From positions 1,860,001 through 1,924,000 of the forward strand of contig NZ_CP016477.1 of assembly GCF_001693275.1 (NCBI RefSeq): DNA of 64,000 nt. The letters run 5' to 3'. A program made the position numbers and the translations under genes. Positions 4,463 through 46,545 of the stretch are shown in pieces. This DNA is from Picosynechococcus sp. PCC 7117. GTDB taxonomy: Bacteria > Cyanobacteriota > Cyanobacteriia > Cyanobacteriales > MRBY01. Positions within the stretch are counted from its first letter, which is position 1. Each line of letters opens with the position of its first letter. Below the pieces are notes generated by a model, which was not told the origin of the DNA, searched no databases, and worked only from the letters and a program-made list of their open reading frames with translations.

Positions 4463-5326
4463 CTATGGCGAAGATTCCAGCGGTATCGAGGACTTGCCCT
4501 GGCTCAAAATGCCATACTTCGGCGCAAAAAACATCGCCAACACAAAGACAATCGTCAGTAAAACCACGATCGCCCCTCCTGTCGAAACATCAAAGTGATA
4601 GCTCAAGTAGGTGCCGAAAACACAGGAAAAAATGCTGCTCGCCCCAGAGATCCACAGCATATGATCAAAGCGGTCTGTCAGTAGATAGGCGATGGAGCCT
4701 GGGGTCACGAGCATCGCAATGACGAGAATAATGCCCGCTGTTTGTAGGGCCGTCACAATGGTCAACGCCAGCACAGACAAAAGCGTGTAATACATCAGTC
4801 GAGTATTTAGGCCGATGGCTTTAGCGTGATTTGGGTCAAAGCAAAAGAGTAACAGATCCTTCCGTTGAATGAGGATCACTACCAAGGTTAGGGTGCCGGC
4901 GATCAAGGTTTGCACAATATCACTGTTGGAGATCCCAAGAACGTTGCCAAACAGAATATGGAAAAGATCGATATTACTGGGGATTTTTGTAATTAAGACA
5001 AGGCCAAAGGCAAAGAACCCCGTGAAAATCACCCCGATGACAGCATCTTCTTTGAGCCTTGTTTTTGACTTTACATAACCAATGGCCACAGTTGCGCCAA
5101 AACCAAAGATGAAAGCGCCAATGGCGAAGGGAATATTTAGGGCATAGGCCACCACGACTCCTGGAACGACGGCATGGGAAACAGCATCCCCCATCAGTGA
5201 CCAACCCTTGAGGGTGATATAGCAGGACAACACCGCACAGACGAGGCCGACAAAGGCACTTACCCAAATGGCTTTGACGAGAAATCCATACTGTAGGGGT
5301 TCAATAATCCAATTCACTAAGCTCAT
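4463..5326 (-). CDS. mntB: Manganese ABC transporter, membrane permease MntB
   Basis: This is a 287-residue ABC-3 family permease with about eight hydrophobic segments, including [20 protein letters not shown] near the N-terminus and [18 protein letters not shown], the signature of metal-type ABC permeases. It forms the channel for Mn2+ in the plasma membrane. Its start overlaps the stop of mntA by 4 bp, indicating translational coupling, and it is the last gene of the mntC-mntA-mntB operon on the minus strand. The identification as Mn rather than Zn transport rests on the mntC partner and gene order. Confidence 0.9.
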
Positions 5327-6123
5327 TGATCTACTTCTTCTAAACTGTTGGGCTGCTGTTGGTAATGGGAGGATAATTTTTCAAGACTAGTGACGGGTAA
5401 CCCCCCAAAGGTCATCACGAGGTTTTCCTCTGTGAAGGTATCGGCGGTATAACCTTCGGCGAGGACGGTGCGATTCAGTAAGATAGTGCGATCGCAGAAC
5501 GTTGAGATCGAAGCAAGATCGTGGGTCGAGATTAAAATCGTGTGCCCCTCATCCCGCAACTGCACCAACAGATCGATGATGCTTTTTTCTGTTTTGATAT
5601 CAACTCCCGTAAAGGGTTCATCAAGCAAAATAATTTTGCCTTCCTGGGCCAAGGCCCGCGCGAGGAAAGCCCGTTTTTTTTGGCCGCCGGAGAGTTCGCC
5701 AATTTGACGGTGACGGAATTCCACCAGATCTACCCGCTCTAGACTTTCCATCACTAAACGACGGTCTTTTTGACTGGGAATCCGCAGCAGATTCATATAG
5801 CCATAGCGACCCATCATCACCACATCAAACACGCTCACGGGAAAGTTCCAATCCACTTCATCGGCTTGGGGAACATAGGCCATCAGTTGTTTTTTCTGGG
5901 CCTGCTGCACCGACTGACCCGCAATGGTGACACGCCCCTGGGTCGGTTTCAAAAACCCCATAATCGATTTAAACAGGGTTGATTTGCCACAACCATTGGG
6001 GCCAACCAGGGCGGTGATGGTGCCTGGTTTGACGTGACAACTGGTGTTGTAAAGGGCGAGGCGGGTGTTGCTGTAGGTGACGCTGATATTTTCAACGGCG
6101 ATTTCTGGGATTGGGTAAGTCAT
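5323..6123 (-). CDS. mntA: Manganese ABC transporter, ATPase MntA
   Basis: The 266-residue ABC ATPase has Walker [13 protein letters not shown] near residue 41, signature [17 protein letters not shown] near residue 144 and Walker [13 protein letters not shown]. It couples ATP hydrolysis to Mn2+ import with MntB and MntC, as in the characterised Synechocystis mntCAB system. It lies 54 bp after mntC and overlaps mntB by 4 bp. In Synechocystis this operon is repressed by the ManS/ManR two-component system when Mn is sufficient; those regulator genes are not in this window. Confidence 0.93.
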
Positions 6124-37415: not shown

Positions 37416-38963
37416 GTGAAGATGAGTGCAAATCCAGAGGTAATCGTCATTGGTAGCGGCATTGGCGGGCTTTGTTGTGCGGGTCTTTTGGCTCGTTATG
37501 GTTATGACGTTTTGGTCTTAGAAAGCCATGCGATCGCCGGTGGTGCGGCCCACAGTTTTACCCGACAGGGCTACCATTTCGACTCCGGGCCATCCCTTTA
37601 TTCCGGCCTTTCCTACAGCCCTTCCCCCAATCCCCTGCGCCAAGTCCTTGATCTCCTCGAAGAAGATTGCCAATGGCTCACCTACGATGCCTGGGGTGTT
37701 CATTTACCCGAAGGTTATTTTCGCGCAGCAGTGGGAGCCGATGGCTTTTGTGAAATGTTGACCCAGATCGGTAAGGCTGATGTGATTCCCCAATGGCGCC
37801 AGCTCCAAGAGACCATGCGTCCCCTCGGTGAAGCCGCCACCAAACTCCCCTTGGCGGCCTTTCGTAACGATCTTGGTGTTGTCCGCACCGTCGGTAAATA
37901 TGCCAAAACTCTCCTGCCTTATCTCCCTTACACTCCCCAACTGAATGCCCCCTTTAGCCGGGTGATGGATCGCGTGATTACTGACCCCTTTATCCGTAAT
38001 TGGCTGGATTTGCTTTGTTTTATGCTCTCTGGATTGCCAGCCAATGGCACAATTTGCGCGGAGATGGCCTTTATGTTCGCCGATTGGTATCGTCCGGAGG
38101 TGATTTTAGATTATCCCCAGGGAGGCAGTGGGGCGATCGTGGCGGCTCTGGTACGAGGCCTCGAAAAATTTGGAGGCAAATTGCGCCTGAATAGCCATGT
38201 GGAAAAAATCCTCACTGAAAATGGCAAGGCCACGGGAGTTCAACTGCGCAACGGTGAAATCCTTCAAGCACGACGGGCAGTGGTTTCTAACGCTTCTGTT
38301 TGGGATACCCTCAAGTTGATTGAGCCGCAAAATATTCCCCGAAAATTGCAAAAACAGGCCGATAAAATGCAGTCTTGTCGCAGTTTTATGCACCTTCATT
38401 TAGGGATTGACAGCAGCAATTTACCTGAAGATTTGGAGTGCCATTACCTCATCGTTGATGACTGGGAAAAGGGAGTTGATGCGGCTCAAAATGTGGTCGC
38501 TGTTTCGATTCCTTCACTGCTGGATCCGAGCCTAGCGCCCCCAGGAAAACATAGTATCCACGTTTATTTGCCTGCTACTGAAGACTATGCACCCTGGACA
38601 AACCTAGACCGTCGTTCCCCAGAATATGCTGCTTTGAAAGAAGAACGTTCCCAGGTTTTGTGGCAAGCTTTAGAAAAAGTGATTCCCGATATTCATCAAC
38701 GCACGGAATTAACCCTTGTTGGTACACCTCTCACCCATAGTCGTTTCCTCAGACGCGATCGCGGTACCTATGGCCCCGAATTAAAAGCGGGGAAAGAACA
38801 GTTTCCGGGTTGTACAACGCCCATCGCCCAACTTTTCTGCTGTGGAGATTCCACTTTTCCGGGGATTGGCATTCCGGCAGTGGCCGGGTCTGGGATGATT
38901 GCCGCCAATACCCTCAGTCCCCTGGGTCAACATTTACAAATTTTGCAGATGATTGCCGATTGA
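37416..38963 (+). CDS. FAD-dependent oxidoreductase, carotenoid isomerase/desaturase (CrtISO/CrtD-like) family
   Basis: The 515-residue protein has the dinucleotide-binding motif VIVIGSGIGGLCCAGLLARYG, GGAAHSFTRQGYHFDSGPS, a middle domain typical of CrtI-like enzymes, and the C-terminal FAD motif CGDSTFPGIGIPAVAGSGM. It is related to CrtISO (CrtH, poly-cis-lycopene isomerisation), CrtD and plant retinol-saturase-like proteins; which of these is not certain. The start is the GTG at 37416 or the ATG at 37422 (MSANPEV), which I would prefer. A terminator lies about 80 bp downstream. Confidence 0.8.
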   Translation: MKMSANPEVIVIGSGIGGLCCAGLLARYGYDVLVLESHAIAGGAAHSFTRQGYHFDSGPSLYSGLSYSPSPNPLRQVLDLLEEDCQWLTYDAWGVHLPEGYFRAAVGADGFCEMLTQIGKADVIPQWRQLQETMRPLGEAATKLPLAAFRNDLGVVRTVGKYAKTLLPYLPYTPQLNAPFSRVMDRVITDPFIRNWLDLLCFMLSGLPANGTICAEMAFMFADWYRPEVILDYPQGGSGAIVAALVRGLEKFGGKLRLNSHVEKILTENGKATGVQLRNGEILQARRAVVSNASVWDTLKLIEPQNIPRKLQKQADKMQSCRSFMHLHLGIDSSNLPEDLECHYLIVDDWEKGVDAAQNVVAVSIPSLLDPSLAPPGKHSIHVYLPATEDYAPWTNLDRRSPEYAALKEERSQVLWQALEKVIPDIHQRTELTLVGTPLTHSRFLRRDRGTYGPELKAGKEQFPGCTTPIAQLFCCGDSTFPGIGIPAVAGSGMIAANTLSPLGQHLQILQMIAD

Positions 38964-39039
38964 AACCATCCTGCCATACCCTTCTCAGGCATCCTCTAAG
39001 ACTTGATGTTTCTTTTAGTCACGCAATAAATATTTTTTG

Positions 39040-39066
39040 ACCCGGTAAGTCTTTTGCCGGGTTTTA
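39040..39066 (+). terminator. Rho-independent terminator after the CrtISO/CrtD-like gene
   Basis: ACCCGGTAA pairs with TTGCCGGGT (9 bp, one wobble) over the loop GTCTT, followed by TTTATCTT. Confidence 0.8.
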
Positions 39067-39103
39067 TCTTTATGATGAAGAGCGCAGTCGATTTAGTGAC
39101 ACT

Positions 39104-40081
39104 ATGTCCCGCCAATTAGAGCGCCTACTGGAAATTGATCGCCTGATCCGTTCAAGAGAGCGGCAAACACAAGTGAGTCTTGCTCAGACCTTGGAAGTTT
39201 CAGAAAGAACAATTCGTAATGATGTTAATTTTTTGCGAGATCGCTATGATGCCCCGCTGGAGTACGACAGAAATCAGGGTTGGTACTATACCGACTCTAA
39301 TTGGCGATTGCCCACTATTCCGGTGACCCAAGGGGAACTTTTTGCTCTCACCCTCGGAGCAAGGATGCTGGAATCTTATTCAGGTTCTATTTATCAAATT
39401 CAATTGCGGGAAACTATTGAGCGAATTGCAGAACGTTTACCAGAACAGAGTGTGATTAATCTGCGACAGTTGGCAGAGGAGCGGGTTCATTTTCGGGTTG
39501 GGGGAGAAATCCAGCTTAATCCAGAAATTTGGCAAGCTCTCATTGAAGCCAGTGAGCGATCACAGTCGGTTTTGATGCGCTACTACTCTCCTAAACGACA
39601 GCAAATATCAGAACGTATTTTCGATCCCTATGTCCTGGATATTTACCGGGCGAGCAATCCTTATGTCTGGGGCTATTGTCACTTGCGCGAGGAGGTTCGG
39701 CAATTTCGGATTGACCGGATTCGTAAGCTTGAACCCACAGGGCAAACCTTTGAGCGGCGGGAATTCGATTTACAGGAGAAATTAAAAAATAGTTTTCAGT
39801 GTGAGGTGGGGGGAAAAACCTATGATGTGGCGATCGCCTTTGATGCTCAAACTGCACCCTACATCACTGAACGGCAATGGCATAGCACCCAAAGGATTGA
39901 GACCCTTGCTGATGGATCGATCACGCTGCGGTTTACGGCTTCGGGTTTGAACGATATGAAGCGTTGGATTCTTGGTTATGGCAGGGGGGCGATCGCCAAA
40001 TCTCCTCCAGAACTAGTGAAGATGCTGGAACGAGAAACGGCGCAGATGGCACGACAAAACGAAACAGGAGAATTTGAGTAG
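39104..40081 (+). CDS. WYL-domain transcriptional regulator
   Basis: The 325-residue protein has an N-terminal winged helix (SLAQTLEVSERTIRNDVNFLRD, residues 25-45) and a C-terminal WYL domain (RYYSPKRQQISERIFDPYVLD; YVWGYCHLREEVRQFRIDRI). WYL regulators of this type (BrxR/CapW/CRISPR-linked in cyanobacteria) control defence loci, often as repressors that sense nucleic acid or nucleotide signals. Directly downstream sits the relic of a cas6 gene and then a type IIG restriction enzyme, so the natural target may have been a CRISPR-Cas operon and may now be the restriction gene. Confidence 0.85.
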   Translation: MSRQLERLLEIDRLIRSRERQTQVSLAQTLEVSERTIRNDVNFLRDRYDAPLEYDRNQGWYYTDSNWRLPTIPVTQGELFALTLGARMLESYSGSIYQIQLRETIERIAERLPEQSVINLRQLAEERVHFRVGGEIQLNPEIWQALIEASERSQSVLMRYYSPKRQQISERIFDPYVLDIYRASNPYVWGYCHLREEVRQFRIDRIRKLEPTGQTFERREFDLQEKLKNSFQCEVGGKTYDVAIAFDAQTAPYITERQWHSTQRIETLADGSITLRFTASGLNDMKRWILGYGRGAIAKSPPELVKMLERETAQMARQNETGEFE

Positions 40082-40168
40082 ATGAATTTTTTGGAAGTGC
40101 AGTTTGAGCTGCGGGGTAAAACGCTGCCTGCGGATCACGGTTACAGTCCCTATTCTGGGATTACATAA
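40082..40168 (+). pseudogene. cas6: N-terminal relic of a CRISPR-associated cas6 gene
   Basis: An ATG directly after the WYL stop opens a 28-codon frame, MNFLEVQFELRGKT then LPADHGYSPYSGIT and TAA. The LPADHGYxLYSxIS motif is the conserved start of Cas6 proteins of the Cmx6/TIGR02807 type, which cut CRISPR precursor RNA. A Cas6 is normally 200-250 residues; everything after the motif is gone and replaced by DNA leading to the restriction gene. No CRISPR repeats or other cas genes occur in the window. Confidence 0.6.
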
Positions 40169-40264
40169 ATTTGCCAACATTCTGCATCATGTTGTTGAAC
40201 TTGATTCTTTGCGAATCTAGTAAGTCTATGATGAATACTATCGGCATTCTGAGTCAGTTATTCG

Positions 40265-43200
40265 ATGTCTATTACTCTTCAATCAGCGATCGCCACATTT
40301 GGAAAAGCAGTTAAGGAAAAACTGTCTAACCCTGTAATGACAGGTCAACCAGAAGATCAGTTAAGAGCACCTTTTGAGACGTTATTGCTCGATCTTGCAG
40401 AACTTTGCCAAATCAAACGTGATGATGTGACGGCAGTGGGTGAGTCGGCTCTAACCGAGCTAAAAACAAGACCTGATTATTCGGTGACTGTCCGCAATGC
40501 CTTGGTTGGTTTTGTGGAATTGAAAGCGCCGGGGAAAGGGGCAAATCCGAAAAGATTTAAAGGGCATGACAAGGCTCAATGGCAAAAGCTTCAGACTCTA
40601 CCTAATCTGATTTATTCGGATGGGAATAGTTTTAGCCTCTGGCAAAATGGGGAATTGGTTGGCTCTATTGTTTCGTTTGATGAGGATATCGAAACTGCTG
40701 GAAAAAATCTAACGCCTCCACAGGGATTGCTTGATCTGTTTCAGTCTTTCTTTCTCTGGGAACCAATCCCACCCACTAATGCCCAAGAGCTTGCCAGAAT
40801 TACCGCTAATCTATGCCGTTTGCTACGGGATGAAGTCGTTGAACAGATGGCTTTGGGGAGTGAAGCTTTAACTTCTTTGGCAGAGGATTGGAGAAACCTG
40901 TTATTTCCTGATGCAACCGATGAGAAATTTGCTGATGGTTATGCTCAGGCTGTGACCTTTGGGCTACTTATGGCGCGGGCGAAAAATATTGAATTGGCGA
41001 CGGGGTTAGATCGTGCAGCAAGAGATCTAAAAAGTGTTAATTCATTGATGGGGACAGCCCTTCGTTTATTGACTGACAATCTTGATGATGAAGCAATTCT
41101 GAAGACTTCGCTCAATTCTCTTGTTCGTGTACTTGATGCCGTGGACTGGGAGCAGATCAGTAAAGGTGATCCAGAGACATGGCTCTATTTTTACGAAGAT
41201 TTTCTGGAAGTTTATGACAACAAGCTCCGTAAAGAAACGGGATCTTACTATACGCCTCCCGCAGTAGTGGAAAATATGGTGCGGCTCGTTAATGAATTGC
41301 TAAAAGATCCGAGTTTTGGATTGCAGGAAGGTTTAGCTTCTTCTGCGGTGACAGTGGTTGATCCGGCGACTGGTACAGGCACATATATGTTGGCAGTGCT
41401 CAAAAAAATTGCGGAATCTGTGAGTGATGATTATGGAGAAGGATCTGTAACATCGGCGATTAATGCGGCATTAAAACGATTAATTGCGTTTGAGCTTCAG
41501 TTGGGACCTTTCACCGTGGCGCAGTTACGAATTTTGGCGGAAGTGCTGGAATTAACGAATGGTTCGCCAACGGAATCCCTCAGAATGTTCGTCACAGATA
41601 CCCTTGGTGATCCGGAAGATGATCAGGGCTGGATTCCCCAGATGTTTGCGCCTATTGCGGAATCTCGTAGGGCAGCAAATCAGATTAAGCGCGAGGAGCC
41701 TGTGACGGTTGTGATTGGCAATCCTCCCTATAAAGACAAGGCAAAAGGTCGTGGTGGTTGGGTTGAGTCCGGTAATCCTCGAACGGATACGCCTGCGCCC
41801 CTAGATGATTGGCAACCGCCTAAAAACTGGAAGATTGGAACCCACGCAAAACATTTGCGTAATCTATACATCTATTTTTGGCGGTGGGCGACGTGGAAAG
41901 TTTTTGATCATCATCCAGAAAACAATTCTGGGATTATCTGTTTTATTACTGTGGCTGGATTTATTGCGGGTCCTGGTTTTCAGAGAATGCGGCAATATTT
42001 ACGGGAAACTTGTGACAATATCTGGGTGATTGATTGTTCACCAGATGGTCATCAGCCGGGAGTGAATACCAGGATTTTTCAGGGGGTACAGCAACCTGTT
42101 TGTATTGTCTTGGCAAGTCGTTCTAAAAAGAAACAAGATGGAAGCCTTGCGAATGTTAAATTTCGAGCTTTGCCCTTGGGAGCGCGGGAAGATAAATTCG
42201 CGGCTTTAGATCGAATTACGTTGTCTGGTGAGGCTTGGGAAGATTGTATGGAAGGAAGTCGCGCTCCTTTCTTGCCGGAATCTGAAGGAAAATGGTCAAC
42301 TTATCCGACGCTCAATGATTTCTTTAATTATGATGGCTCTGGGGTTATGCCCGGTAGAACATGGGTAATTGCACCGGATGTCGAGTCTTTAGAAAAACGT
42401 TGGCAGGCACTTCAAAATGCTCCTATTGATAAGAAAGAAGAACTGTTTCATCCCCATGGTTCTGGGGATCGAACTGTTGCGAAAAAAATTTCTGATTCTC
42501 TGGCAGGACAGCCACAACGTAATCTTTCAGTAACAGAAGATAAAAATGATGTGGTTACTCCTGTGAAATATGGTTATCGTTCCTTTGATCGACAATGGAT
42601 TATTCCTGATAAAAGATTGATCAATCGACCAAATCCGAAATTATGGGAGTGGCATTCAGATAATCAAATTTATTTAGCAACTCCTGATCGTCCTCCCACA
42701 GATAATTGTGCTGTGACGTATATGTCACTAATTCCAGACTTAAATTCTTACAATGGCAGAGGAGGTCGGATCATTCCACTTTGGCAAACAGCGGATTGTA
42801 GTGATAGCAATGTTAAACGAGCATTTTTAGATTTTTTGAGCAACTTTTACGAGGATAAGATTTCTGCTGAAGATTTCTTTGCTTATATTGCTGGTGTTGT
42901 GGCAAATCCTGCCTATACCAAACGCTTTCAAGAAGACTTACAAACCCCCGGTATCCGAGTCCCTTTAACCGCCGATCTCAAGTTATTTCAGGAAGCTGTA
43001 GCACTGGGTAAGCGAGTCATTTGGTTACATACCTTTAGCGAGAGGATGATTGATGCCACTGACAATAGACCATCAGGTCACCCTCGCTTACCCAAAACAG
43101 AACGCCCCACAATTCCCAAAGACGGCACAATTCCCAATACTCCAGAAGAAATGCCTGACGACATCAGTTACGATGCAAACAAAAAGCGTTTACTCGTTGG

Positions 43201-43573
43201 CTCTGGTTTTGTCGAGAATGTTCCACCGGAAGTCTGGCATTACAACGTTTCCGGCAAGCAAATTGTTAAACAGTGGTTTAGTTATCGTAAGAAAGATCGT
43301 AGTCGTCCGATTATTGGCGATCGGCGACATCCTTCTCCTCTGAATCAAATTCAACCCGATCATTGGCTAGATGAATACACGAGAGAACTTCTCAATTTGC
43401 TAAATGTGCTGGGATTACTCATCAAACTAGAACCTCAGCAAGCGGACTTGCTAGAACATATTTGCGAAGGAGAAACCATTTCCCTACAGACTCTGAAAAA
43501 GACAAATGCCTTAGCAGAATCATCAGTCTCTTGTTCACAGAAAAACAACCCAGATCAATTATCTTTACTCTAA
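40265..43573 (+). CDS. Single-chain type IIG restriction endonuclease/adenine methyltransferase
   Basis: The 1102-residue protein joins three functions. The N-terminus holds a PD-(D/E)XK nuclease signature (RPD at 69-71, VELK at 84-87). The middle holds an N6-adenine methyltransferase: motif I VVDPATGTGTYML near residue 363 and motif IV IGNPPYKDK near residue 482. The C-terminal half is the target-recognition domain of the type ISP/IIG kind. No helicase motor is seen, so it is IIG rather than type I. HIP1 sites are absent from most of the gene (one near its start), suggesting acquisition. It follows the WYL regulator and cas6 relic. Confidence 0.85.
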   Translation: MSITLQSAIATFGKAVKEKLSNPVMTGQPEDQLRAPFETLLLDLAELCQIKRDDVTAVGESALTELKTRPDYSVTVRNALVGFVELKAPGKGANPKRFKGHDKAQWQKLQTLPNLIYSDGNSFSLWQNGELVGSIVSFDEDIETAGKNLTPPQGLLDLFQSFFLWEPIPPTNAQELARITANLCRLLRDEVVEQMALGSEALTSLAEDWRNLLFPDATDEKFADGYAQAVTFGLLMARAKNIELATGLDRAARDLKSVNSLMGTALRLLTDNLDDEAILKTSLNSLVRVLDAVDWEQISKGDPETWLYFYEDFLEVYDNKLRKETGSYYTPPAVVENMVRLVNELLKDPSFGLQEGLASSAVTVVDPATGTGTYMLAVLKKIAESVSDDYGEGSVTSAINAALKRLIAFELQLGPFTVAQLRILAEVLELTNGSPTESLRMFVTDTLGDPEDDQGWIPQMFAPIAESRRAANQIKREEPVTVVIGNPPYKDKAKGRGGWVESGNPRTDTPAPLDDWQPPKNWKIGTHAKHLRNLYIYFWRWATWKVFDHHPENNSGIICFITVAGFIAGPGFQRMRQYLRETCDNIWVIDCSPDGHQPGVNTRIFQGVQQPVCIVLASRSKKKQDGSLANVKFRALPLGAREDKFAALDRITLSGEAWEDCMEGSRAPFLPESEGKWSTYPTLNDFFNYDGSGVMPGRTWVIAPDVESLEKRWQALQNAPIDKKEELFHPHGSGDRTVAKKISDSLAGQPQRNLSVTEDKNDVVTPVKYGYRSFDRQWIIPDKRLINRPNPKLWEWHSDNQIYLATPDRPPTDNCAVTYMSLIPDLNSYNGRGGRIIPLWQTADCSDSNVKRAFLDFLSNFYEDKISAEDFFAYIAGVVANPAYTKRFQEDLQTPGIRVPLTADLKLFQEAVALGKRVIWLHTFSERMIDATDNRPSGHPRLPKTERPTIPKDGTIPNTPEEMPDDISYDANKKRLLVGSGFVENVPPEVWHYNVSGKQIVKQWFSYRKKDRSRPIIGDRRHPSPLNQIQPDHWLDEYTRELLNLLNVLGLLIKLEPQQADLLEHICEGETISLQTLKKTNALAESSVSCSQKNNPDQLSLL

Positions 43574-43597
43574 CTATTTAGATTGGAGAATTTTGTC

Positions 43598-43870
43598 ATG
43601 ACAGAACGCGAACAACTCATCCAAGAACTAGAGAAAACCCCAGATATCCTCGTGGGGGAAGTCTTAGACTTTTTGTTATTCATCAAGAAGAAAGCTTCCC
43701 AAGCAATTCCTCAAGAGAAGACTCAAATGGTCTCACAAACTTCTCCTTTTCTGAATTTTATTAATCAACTAGAAACTGATTTGCCTGTGCAAGAGGAAGA
43801 GAAGTTGCCGAGTGATTTTGCAAAAAATCTTGATCATTATCTGTACGGTTTAGCAAAAGAGGCAGAATGA
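43598..43870 (+). CDS. DUF2281-type antitoxin
   Basis: The ATG at 43598 (MTEREQLIQELEKTPDILVG) is chosen; an upstream in-frame TTG five codons earlier is possible. The 90-residue protein has the DUF2281-like segment EVLDFLLFIKKKA and an acidic C-terminus. Such small proteins pair with PIN-domain toxins. It overlaps the next gene by 4 bp, a hallmark of toxin-antitoxin pairs. It lies 24 bp after the restriction gene and may be in the same transcript. Confidence 0.75.
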   Translation: MTEREQLIQELEKTPDILVGEVLDFLLFIKKKASQAIPQEKTQMVSQTSPFLNFINQLETDLPVQEEEKLPSDFAKNLDHYLYGLAKEAE

Positions 43871-44280
43871 AGAAAGTCTTTGCAGATACAGGTTATTGGA
43901 TCGCTTTACTTAATCCTGATGATGACCTTGCTGATAAAGCTAAACAGCTTGCTTCATCCCTAACTTCAGCCAAAATCGTCACGAGCGAAATGATCTTTAG
44001 CGAACTACTGAATGCTTTTTCTAAGAAAGGTAGCATTTATCGAGAACGGGCAATTCGTTTGATCGATTACGCATCTCAGAGTTCAGAAATAGAAGTCATT
44101 CCCCAGACGACAGAACTTTTTAGCTCAGCCCTCGATCTCTACAAGCAAAGACCGGATCAAGGCTGGAGCCATACTGATTGTTCATCATTCTGCATTATGC
44201 AACAGCAAGATATTTTAGAAGCCCTCGCCTATGACAAGCATTTTGAGCAAGCTGGTTTCATAGCTCTCTTGAGAAGATGA
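43867..44280 (+). CDS. PIN-domain (VapC-like) ribonuclease toxin
   Basis: The 137-residue protein has PIN acidic residues at D7 (FADTGYWIALL), E (VTSEMIFSELL) and TDCSSFCIM plus the D in AYDKHFEQAGF. VapC-type toxins cut tRNA or rRNA; the target is unknown. Start and antitoxin stop overlap by 4 bp. The full catalytic set is intact, so it is likely active. Confidence 0.85.
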   Translation: MKKVFADTGYWIALLNPDDDLADKAKQLASSLTSAKIVTSEMIFSELLNAFSKKGSIYRERAIRLIDYASQSSEIEVIPQTTELFSSALDLYKQRPDQGWSHTDCSSFCIMQQQDILEALAYDKHFEQAGFIALLRR

Positions 44281-44281
44281 T

Positions 44282-44821
<540 letters not shown>

Positions 44822-45353
44822 ACCCATCAATCTGGGCCTGTTGCTCTTTAACTTTCAACTCAAGCCGCTTGAAATAATCGAGCTGGGAAACCGAGAAATA
44901 AGCAATAGGAAACCATATCCCTAGGAATGCAATCCAGGCTAAGTCAGATTCTGCTCCCATCAAAAACAGCCAAGGGATACTAGCAAAGAAGGCCGCAAAA
45001 TGAGTGATCATATAGTTCAAGAAAACGATCCGCCATTTTTTATAAAACTTTTTGTAGATCCAGACTTCCAGGCTGAGCGCAAGCATCATCAAAAATAAGA
45101 CCGCAAGCCACTCATCTCCATATTTCGGCCCCGTGGTTACAACTCCGTTAACGATAAAAGCAAATCCAAGGGAACCAAGACAAAATACCCCAAGCAGTTT
45201 CAGGGTTTTGAGGAAAGTATCAATCATGAGCTTTTTCCAGGGGCGCGAGGACGGTCGGGATTATCCGTAATCTATTGGGTAAGTGTTAAAATGCCGTCCT
45301 TCTGTTACTAATGATGATAAGTCCTAAAATGCGTATCTAAACCTGTGATTTAA

Positions 45354-45545
45354 TCAAAATTCCCGCTTTAATCCTTCTTCACTGGCATAGACCCCAAGGG
45401 CGATCCGTTGCCGATGGGGAGCTGTCCGCCCCGTCCCAGGTTTAGGGGGGAGAAAGGCCCGCAGATAGACCCGTTTCCCCCGAATTTCCACAGACACGCC
45501 GATGTTTCCGGCGCTTAAATCCCGGTTAATCTCTTGAATGTTCAT
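45354..45545 (-). pseudogene. N-terminal remnant of a tyrosine site-specific integrase
   Basis: The 63-codon frame MNIQEINRDLSAGNIGVSVE ends EEGLKREF and TAA. The pattern RGKRVYLRAFLPPKPG, then HRQRIALGVYASEEGLK, matches the arm-binding N-terminus of cyanobacterial phage/plasmid-type integrases, which normally continue for about 300 more residues. The catalytic domain is absent. It lies 128 bp from tRNA-Met, a typical integration position. Confidence 0.6.
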
Positions 45546-45673
45546 GGCTTTTCTGGCCTATATTTGACCTAAGCCTTACGAGGGGACAGGCATCCCAGGC
45601 CACCATGAAAAAGTAAGCGAAAATTCCCTACGCTACCGATAGCGCAATGGAAATTTGACCTACACTGTAAATA

Positions 45674-45747
45674 TGGCTCGAGGCAGATTTGAACTGCCGA
45701 CCTTGGGCTTATGAGTCCCCTGCTCTAACCAGCTGAGCTACCGAGCC
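45674..45747 (-). tRNA. trnM: tRNA-Met (CAT anticodon)
   Basis: The minus strand folds as a 74-nt tRNA: acceptor GGCTCGG/TCGAGCC with one wobble, D-arm TAGCTCAGCTGG, anticodon loop CTCATAA, T-arm GCAGTTCAAATCTGC, and A as discriminator. The CCA end is not encoded. The anticodon is CAT; the body looks like elongator Met rather than the initiator. An integrase remnant is adjacent. Confidence 0.95.
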
Positions 45748-45765
45748 AAAACCGTAAACAATAAT

Positions 45766-46421: not shown

Positions 46422-46515
46422 GACTCGGATCTATGCGATCTCGACGCCCAAACCTTGTCAGGACCGGAAGGTAGCAGCAATACGGGATGCTCGTGGTAGG
46501 CGTAGGCTCCGGGTC
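46422..46515 (+). ncRNA. ffs: Signal recognition particle 4.5S RNA
   Basis: The SRP core is seen as GTCAGGACCGGAAGGTAGCA followed by GCAATACGGGATGC. The outer arms (GACTCGGA ... CCGGGTC) pair, giving a single-hairpin bacterial RNA of about 95 nt. It targets membrane-protein ribosomes together with Ffh. A T-rich tract follows. Confidence 0.93.
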
Positions 46516-46545
46516 TTTTAGTTTTTTGGGGATTGCAGCAGTCAG

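Follow-up and report, generated by a model that had tools for sequence, protein, structure and literature searches.

The window, the whole stretch of 64,000 bp analysed here, corresponds to positions 1860001-1924000 of the 3.09-Mb chromosome of Picosynechococcus sp. PCC 7117 (whole genome 3.43 Mb). From left to right, the locus contains a crtH homologue, a WYL regulator gene, a 28-codon frame, a type IIG-like restriction gene, a VapBC toxin-antitoxin (TA) pair, a cas7/TA remnant, the remains of an integrated element and a tRNA-Met gene. The crtH homologue, left neighbour of the WYL gene, encodes a CrtH-like carotenoid isomerase/oxidoreductase and ends at 38963. The sole close reference operon for the locus is found on plasmid3 of Picosynechococcus ([Synechococcus]) sp. 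NIES-970 (AP017962.1, locus L016).

The WYL gene (39104-40081, + strand) encodes an intact winged-helix regulator of 325 aa with matches to the WYL (Pfam, 8e-16), WCX (7e-16) and HTH_11 profiles, and this combination of HTH, WYL and WCX parts at the head of an operon is that of a candidate WYL autoregulator of a defence operon. Alignment with 10 homologues shows that the protein retains every invariant residue. Comparison with the NIES-970 gene gives dN 0.15 and dS 1.37 (dN/dS about 0.11), and the count of derived residues relative to NIES-970 (34 vs 22, P=0.14) indicates no excess decay.

Upstream of the WYL genes lies a shared element, consisting of an inverted repeat (consensus approximately CGGAA..TTTTTGC(C/A)GGGT) followed after ~9 nt by a -10-like box (consensus TA.GAT, 41 aligned upstream regions). 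The core TTTYGCMGGG is present in 41 of 66 WYL upstream regions, nearly always 48-60 nt before the start, while the control of 1.34 Mb of surrounding sequence contains 5 matches, corresponding to 0.04 expected in the upstream regions. In a class-wide scan, the full element was matched 22 times, and 20 of these matches precede a complete or remnant WYL gene by 24-49 nt. The window has retained an intact copy, with the inverted repeat CCCGGTAA-GTCTT-TTGCCGGG at 39041-39061 (+ strand) and TATGAT at 39071-39076 (+ strand), in the conserved spacing. It most likely represents a candidate autoregulatory operator of the WYL gene, and so of the former cas operon, as it resembles the site that BrxR recognises at the BrxR promoter, an inverted repeat of 11 bp with a spacer of 5 bp (PMC9122601). 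The element occurs once in the 3.43-Mb genome, and a second operator controlling other genes was accordingly rejected. Across cyanobacteria, the promoter-operator marks the WYL-cas family, and it precedes both I-B and I-E operons (L062-L127). No report of it was found in the literature searched, and it offers a direct EMSA target for this large family of cyanobacterial WYL-cas loci.

The original prediction held that WYL regulators of this kind often precede CRISPR-Cas operons in cyanobacteria, and the survey of relatives bears this out. Among 60 genomes from the genus and order, I-B cas genes lie behind every WYL homologue found, 10 full ones and one fragment. Named cyanobacterial genomes gave 66 homologues, 62 of which have at least 900 nt of readable downstream sequence, and the next gene is a cas gene (by our own profiles) in 57 of these 62. 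The order is mostly cas6-cas3-cas8-cas7, typed by PADLOC as I-B/MYXAN; cas3 comes first in 11 of the 57, and those examined are I-E operons. The remaining five comprise L119 (a cas operon of type I-E by reading), three broken WYL genes, and L113, the only intact WYL gene without a cas gene next to it. Of the candidates for WYL genes without cas neighbours, L122, L127, L118 and L120 were set aside as the WYL gene itself is broken there, and L119 and L222 proved to be cas operons of type I-E. The gene order in the relatives is WYL-cas6-cas3-cas8-cas7-cas5, and a WYL-IIG pair occurs neither among the 62 readable WYL homologues nor in the 8 other genomes that carry the IIG gene.

In the window, the TAG stop of the WYL gene abuts the ATG of the 28-codon frame (40082-40168, + strand), which ends in a premature TAA. 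The encoded peptide was predicted to be the start of a Cmx6-type Cas6, and it does match the Cas6 profiles, corresponding to the Cas6 N-terminus in TIGR02807 (cas6_cmx6, E=2.1e-5, positions 1-27 of 197), PADLOC Cas6b (1.4e-6) and Pfam Cas6 (2.2e-4). Its scores lie below the whole-protein cut-offs because only a 27-residue fragment is present. Against a profile built from relatives the peptide scores 38.6 bits, compared with 5.5 bits for the best of 5000 shuffles, and the first 105 nt share 92 identical positions with NIES-970 cas6 (88% DNA identity); together these rule out a chance match of the 28-mer. The cas6 homology runs ~8 codons past the stub stop, with recognisable cas6 DNA until about 40189, and the stop itself is a substitution (CAG to TAA) relative to NIES-970 cas6, accompanied by an L-to-P change. 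The stub is the only MYXAN-type cas6 match in the whole genome. The left junction segment that follows (40190-40264, + strand) has no match to NIES-970 cas6, whose similarity ends at about 40182-40189, nor to the DNA upstream of IIG homologues. The cas6 gene of NIES-970 plasmid3 (L016:7694-8101) itself looks broken, as its 136-aa frame covers no more than positions 1-115 of the 197 in the family profile.

The next gene (40265-43573, + strand) had been described as a complete 1102-residue nuclease-methyltransferase, and this description stands. The protein matches PADLOC REase_MTase_IIG with 1310 bits over residues 8-1079 of 1102 and the Pfam domains N6_Mtase, Eco57I and Type_ISP_C. It comprises a PD-ExK nuclease, an N6-adenine methyltransferase and a type ISP-like C-terminal specificity domain, and the motifs PD-ExK (RPDY...ELK), DPATGTGTY and NPPY are intact and conserved in homologues. 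The nearest solved relatives are LlaBIII and PDB 7lo5 (1029 aa). The methyltransferase domain of the window enzyme aligns with those of the type ISP enzymes LlaBIII and LlaGI and of 7lo5, and its specificity region also aligns with that of LlaBIII. However, LlaBIII has 1578 aa compared with 1102 aa here, and the window protein has no Pfam match to a helicase family, which makes type IIG a better label than type ISP and distinguishes it from the translocating type ISP enzymes.

Homologues of this IIG type are rare, occurring in 8 others of 390 cyanobacterial genomes, and the nearest (60-69% identity) belong to other cyanobacterial families; none of the 8 has WYL or cas genes nearby. In two IIG homologues (L055 and L056, from G120 and G094) the PD-ExK motif is changed (E to G and D to N, respectively), and these enzymes may be limited to methylation. 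As originally noted, the gene in the window contains a single HIP1 site near its start; the site lies at 40286. The density in the window would predict about 5 (Poisson P about 0.035), and the scarcity is consistent with recent arrival. This site, the nearest HIP1 to the left junction, sits inside the IIG gene, and a left junction at HIP1 was rejected on that ground.

Downstream of the IIG gene is a VapBC pair, consisting of a VapB-type antitoxin (DUF2281-like; 43583-43870, likely start ATG 43598, + strand) with matches to Pfam (9e-4, below that family's cut-off) and to NCBIfam TA_VapB (0.007), and a PIN-domain VapC toxin (43867-44280, + strand; Pfam PIN, 5e-10). This pair differs from the one in the NIES-970 operon. 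It is followed by the 3' remnant of a cas7 gene (44282-44407, + strand), comprising the last ~35 codons with their own stop. The remnant is in order and in register, 39 aligned residues being 69% identical to the C-terminal end of Cas7 from NIES-970 (DevR/Cst2; E=3e-17, pairwise). Next come a full-length antitoxin gene (44424-44654, + strand), which matches the one directly after cas7 in NIES-970, and its truncated partner PIN toxin gene (44651-44734, + strand), which in NIES-970 lies between cas7 and cas5 and whose homology here ends at a HIP1 site. The cas7 tail with its TA remnant (about 44298-44734) and the second TA pair inside the insert go beyond the original prediction.

By blastn, the window matches NIES-970 mainly in two colinear segments of the same strand orientation, and it corresponds to the reference operon only at both ends. 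The first (38999-40182, L016 6613-7794, 77%) includes the WYL gene and the cas6 start, and the second (44319-44734, L016 12946-13360, 82% over 416 bp) spans the last ~35 codons of cas7, the following antitoxin gene and the first ~28 codons of the PIN toxin gene. Between the two, 5151 bp of the NIES-970 operon (most of cas6, cas3, cas8 and most of cas7) are exchanged for ~4.1 kb containing the IIG gene and the VapBC pair. No other evidence speaks as strongly for a replacement within the operon as the remnant on the cas7 side. The reading of the 28-codon frame as similar to cas6 by chance or as a small gene of another kind, and of WYL-IIG as an ordinary regulator-restriction unit, has in its favour only that the stub peptide scores below the family cut-offs, and is refuted by the DNA-level match on both sides: the 88% identity to cas6 lies in the same place directly 3' of the WYL stop, the cas7 tail lies on the far side of the IIG gene, and the WYL-IIG pair is present in no relative.

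No functional effector (cas3, cas8, cas5, cas7) and no repeat array are present at the window site, from which cas4-cas1 and cas2 are likewise absent, and no copy of the NIES-970 CRISPR repeat occurs anywhere in the genome (up to 3 mismatches). As the NIES-970 matches are confined to the ends and the repeat is missing from the genome, the locus is a relic rather than a working CRISPR system; for the same reason, a leftover array of the lost system was rejected. The predicted swap of one defence system for another is thus borne out by the cas6 stub and the in-register cas7 remnant that flank the restriction gene, and we hold it to be almost certain that an I-B (MYXAN) cas core was exchanged for the IIG restriction gene and VapBC between operon remnants. 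The exchange is a single observation, since the same product is seen in no other genome, and it looks recent, since the stub is still 88% identical to NIES-970 cas6.

The original operon would have had the type I-B (MYXAN) order operator-WYL-cas6-cas3-cas8-cas7-vapBC-cas5 etc. Its effector core, from cas6 codon ~34 to the last ~35 codons of cas7, was almost certainly exchanged in place, with direction kept, for a piece carrying the IIG restriction-modification gene and the VapBC pair. The remnant would have been joined to the decayed prophage beside tRNA-Met through another break, subsequent or independent, at a HIP1 site. One direct repeat (D7, 40175-40191/44183-44199) was considered as a target-site duplication and rejected, because the PIN gene contains one of the copies and the search gave 16 pairs of this weak kind. 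It is improbable that the mosaic was instead built stepwise by unrelated insertions (a WYL-cas6 fragment, then IIG, VapBC and a cas7-TA fragment). Such a history would suit a hotspot, an outer right break that meets prophage DNA at a HIP1 site, and a VapBC pair and IIG gene with no common relatives seen here; however, both cas flanks derive from one operon type, on the same strand and in the correct order, and they diverge from the one reference to a similar degree (77% and 82%).

The interval between the crtH homologue and tRNA-Met has a history of its own. In the closest relative (G002; L047, chromosome 2003001-2023000), the same interval is occupied by a prophage-like element of ~16 kb that encodes a complete integrase and is bounded by direct repeats of 45 bp, copies of the tRNA-Met end. 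The window and this relative diverge at 38971 and rejoin at 44732, and the window retains one gene of the G002-type element (44739-45227, - strand; blastn 83% to L047) and an N-terminal remnant of the integrase (45354-45545, - strand), the full 369-aa form of which is encoded in G002 (L047:1594-2703). The tRNA-Met gene (45673-45748, - strand; ARAGORN/Rfam) is the integration site of this hotspot, recognised as such because G002 holds the prophage-like element there and the window its remains. The right-hand break of the cas relic (44726-44733) occurs at the HIP1 site, where it is joined to the prophage remains. Integrase-type insertion of the present contents at tRNA-Met found no support, as the second att copy is missing. 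A gene for the bacterial small SRP RNA is located beside the hotspot (window 46422-46518, + strand).

The WYL and IIG genes are co-directional, and both the regulator and its conserved operator are intact. Between 40081 and 40265 no terminator-like site was detected, and no promoter consensus was found before the IIG gene, although a sigma-70 scan is a weak test that could miss a promoter in 75 bp. These features support the original idea of a shared regulator only indirectly, and on them we slightly favour the view that the WYL protein controls the IIG gene today. The WYL protein would still bind the operator and repress its own promoter, from which the IIG gene would be transcribed at least in part, being co-directional with no terminator detected; the ligand that once relieved repression of the cas genes, whatever it is, would thus do the same for restriction. 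We estimate the probability of the best explanation as a whole, in-place replacement together with inherited WYL control, at roughly three in four.

A somewhat less probable account, and the most serious competitor, accepts the replacement as real but holds that regulation was not inherited: the IIG-VapBC piece would simply have inserted into a cas operon already in decay at an integration hotspot, the WYL gene and operator being fading leftovers and the IIG gene having its own promoter in the ~75-100 bp upstream. In other genomes the IIG homologues stand alone among unrelated neighbours, and the family therefore needs no WYL regulator; the site, beside tRNA-Met and with a prophage-like element in the closest relative, is a turnover hotspot. 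In addition, the swap is recent, so that decay may have lacked time and an intact WYL gene and operator are weak evidence of use. Against this, the WYL protein keeps every invariant residue with no significant acceleration, and neither the operator nor the -10 box has decayed, whereas the cas6 stub has by now acquired a stop and the L-to-P change; the lack of a promoter consensus before the IIG gene points the same way, as far as that weak test goes.

Truncated cas6 genes are also present in other genomes. On plasmid pSYSM of Synechocystis PCC 6803 (NC_005229.1, L159:6917-8978), the frame directly behind an intact WYL gene, which retains the operator core, has 69 aa (SGL_RS00450, annotated as a recombinase family protein), and its first ~30 residues are Cas6 (TIGR02807, 7.6e-6). 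This cas6 N-terminal stub, cut at nearly the same codon as that in the window, is fused to an apparent resolvase tail and followed by a Phd/VapC pair, and it represents a case independent of the window. The pSYSM arrangement (SGL_RS00455-RS00440) resembles that in the window in having an intact WYL gene and a cas6 stub with the rest of the operon gone, but differs in its resolvase-tail fusion and the TA pair behind it, and has no restriction gene in the 15-kb stretch examined. In genome G066 (L195, reverse complement 5321-5524), a second, truncated cas6 start is located ~1 kb before the intact cas6 and operon. This duplicate stub ends at a HIP1-like GCGATCGC, the motif at which the pSYSM stub is also cut, hinting that HIP1 sites serve as joints. 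The further stubs in pSYSM and G066 indicate that loss of the operon behind the WYL gene is recurrent, while replacement by a restriction enzyme is seen only in the window genome. With cas6 stubs cut at about the same codon in three lineages (window, pSYSM and G066), one may speculate, with little confidence, that operator, WYL gene and cas6 start form a reusable socket, effectors being lost repeatedly through cuts just inside cas6 and other genes taking their place behind the retained regulator.

It is well established that defence systems are exchanged at hotspots, and WYL repressors of defence operons are known. The closest counterparts of the window locus are the I-B (MYXAN) operons of NIES-970 plasmid3 (AP017962.1) and Synechocystis PCC 6714 pSYLB, which have the same WYL gene (79% to NIES-970), promoter-operator, cas6 start and antitoxin after cas7; unlike these, the window lacks most of cas6, cas3, cas8 and most of cas7, and has IIG and VapBC in their place. 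In Synechocystis 6803, the WYL repressor Sll7009 acts on a I-D CRISPR system, and its deletion raises mature crRNA, according to the accounts given of Hein et al. 2013 in PMC10212523 and PMC4012209. Sll7009 is, as in the window, an HTH-WYL regulator beside a cas operon, although the CRISPR subtype differs and the two are likened by role rather than sequence. BrxR and CapW are WYL repressors of BREX and CBASS, encoded at the head of the defence operon (PMC9122601, PMC9122589, PMC9122588), and the BrxR inverted repeat (11 bp, with a 5-bp spacer) has the same layout as the window element. However, BrxR and CapW loci keep their own system, whereas the regulator and effector in the window come from different immune systems. 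The substitution of a restriction enzyme for a CRISPR effector core between surviving pieces of the operon amounts to a natural promoter-swap experiment, and the locus is a natural setting in which to see whether the switch of one immune system can be adopted by another. Two questions become accessible with it: does the WYL ligand report infection as such or something specific to CRISPR, and can one defence regulator stand in for another?

In Synechococcaceae SM2_3_2 (G155; L113/L223), an intact WYL gene with its operator has a DUF820/Uma2-like gene, rather than cas genes, behind it, and this locus is another lost or replaced cas operon. PCC 7117 itself carries two further Cas1 loci (L150, L151) on contig C6 (264782 bases), one of which resembles a type I-D operon, and the strain thus still has CRISPR systems elsewhere.
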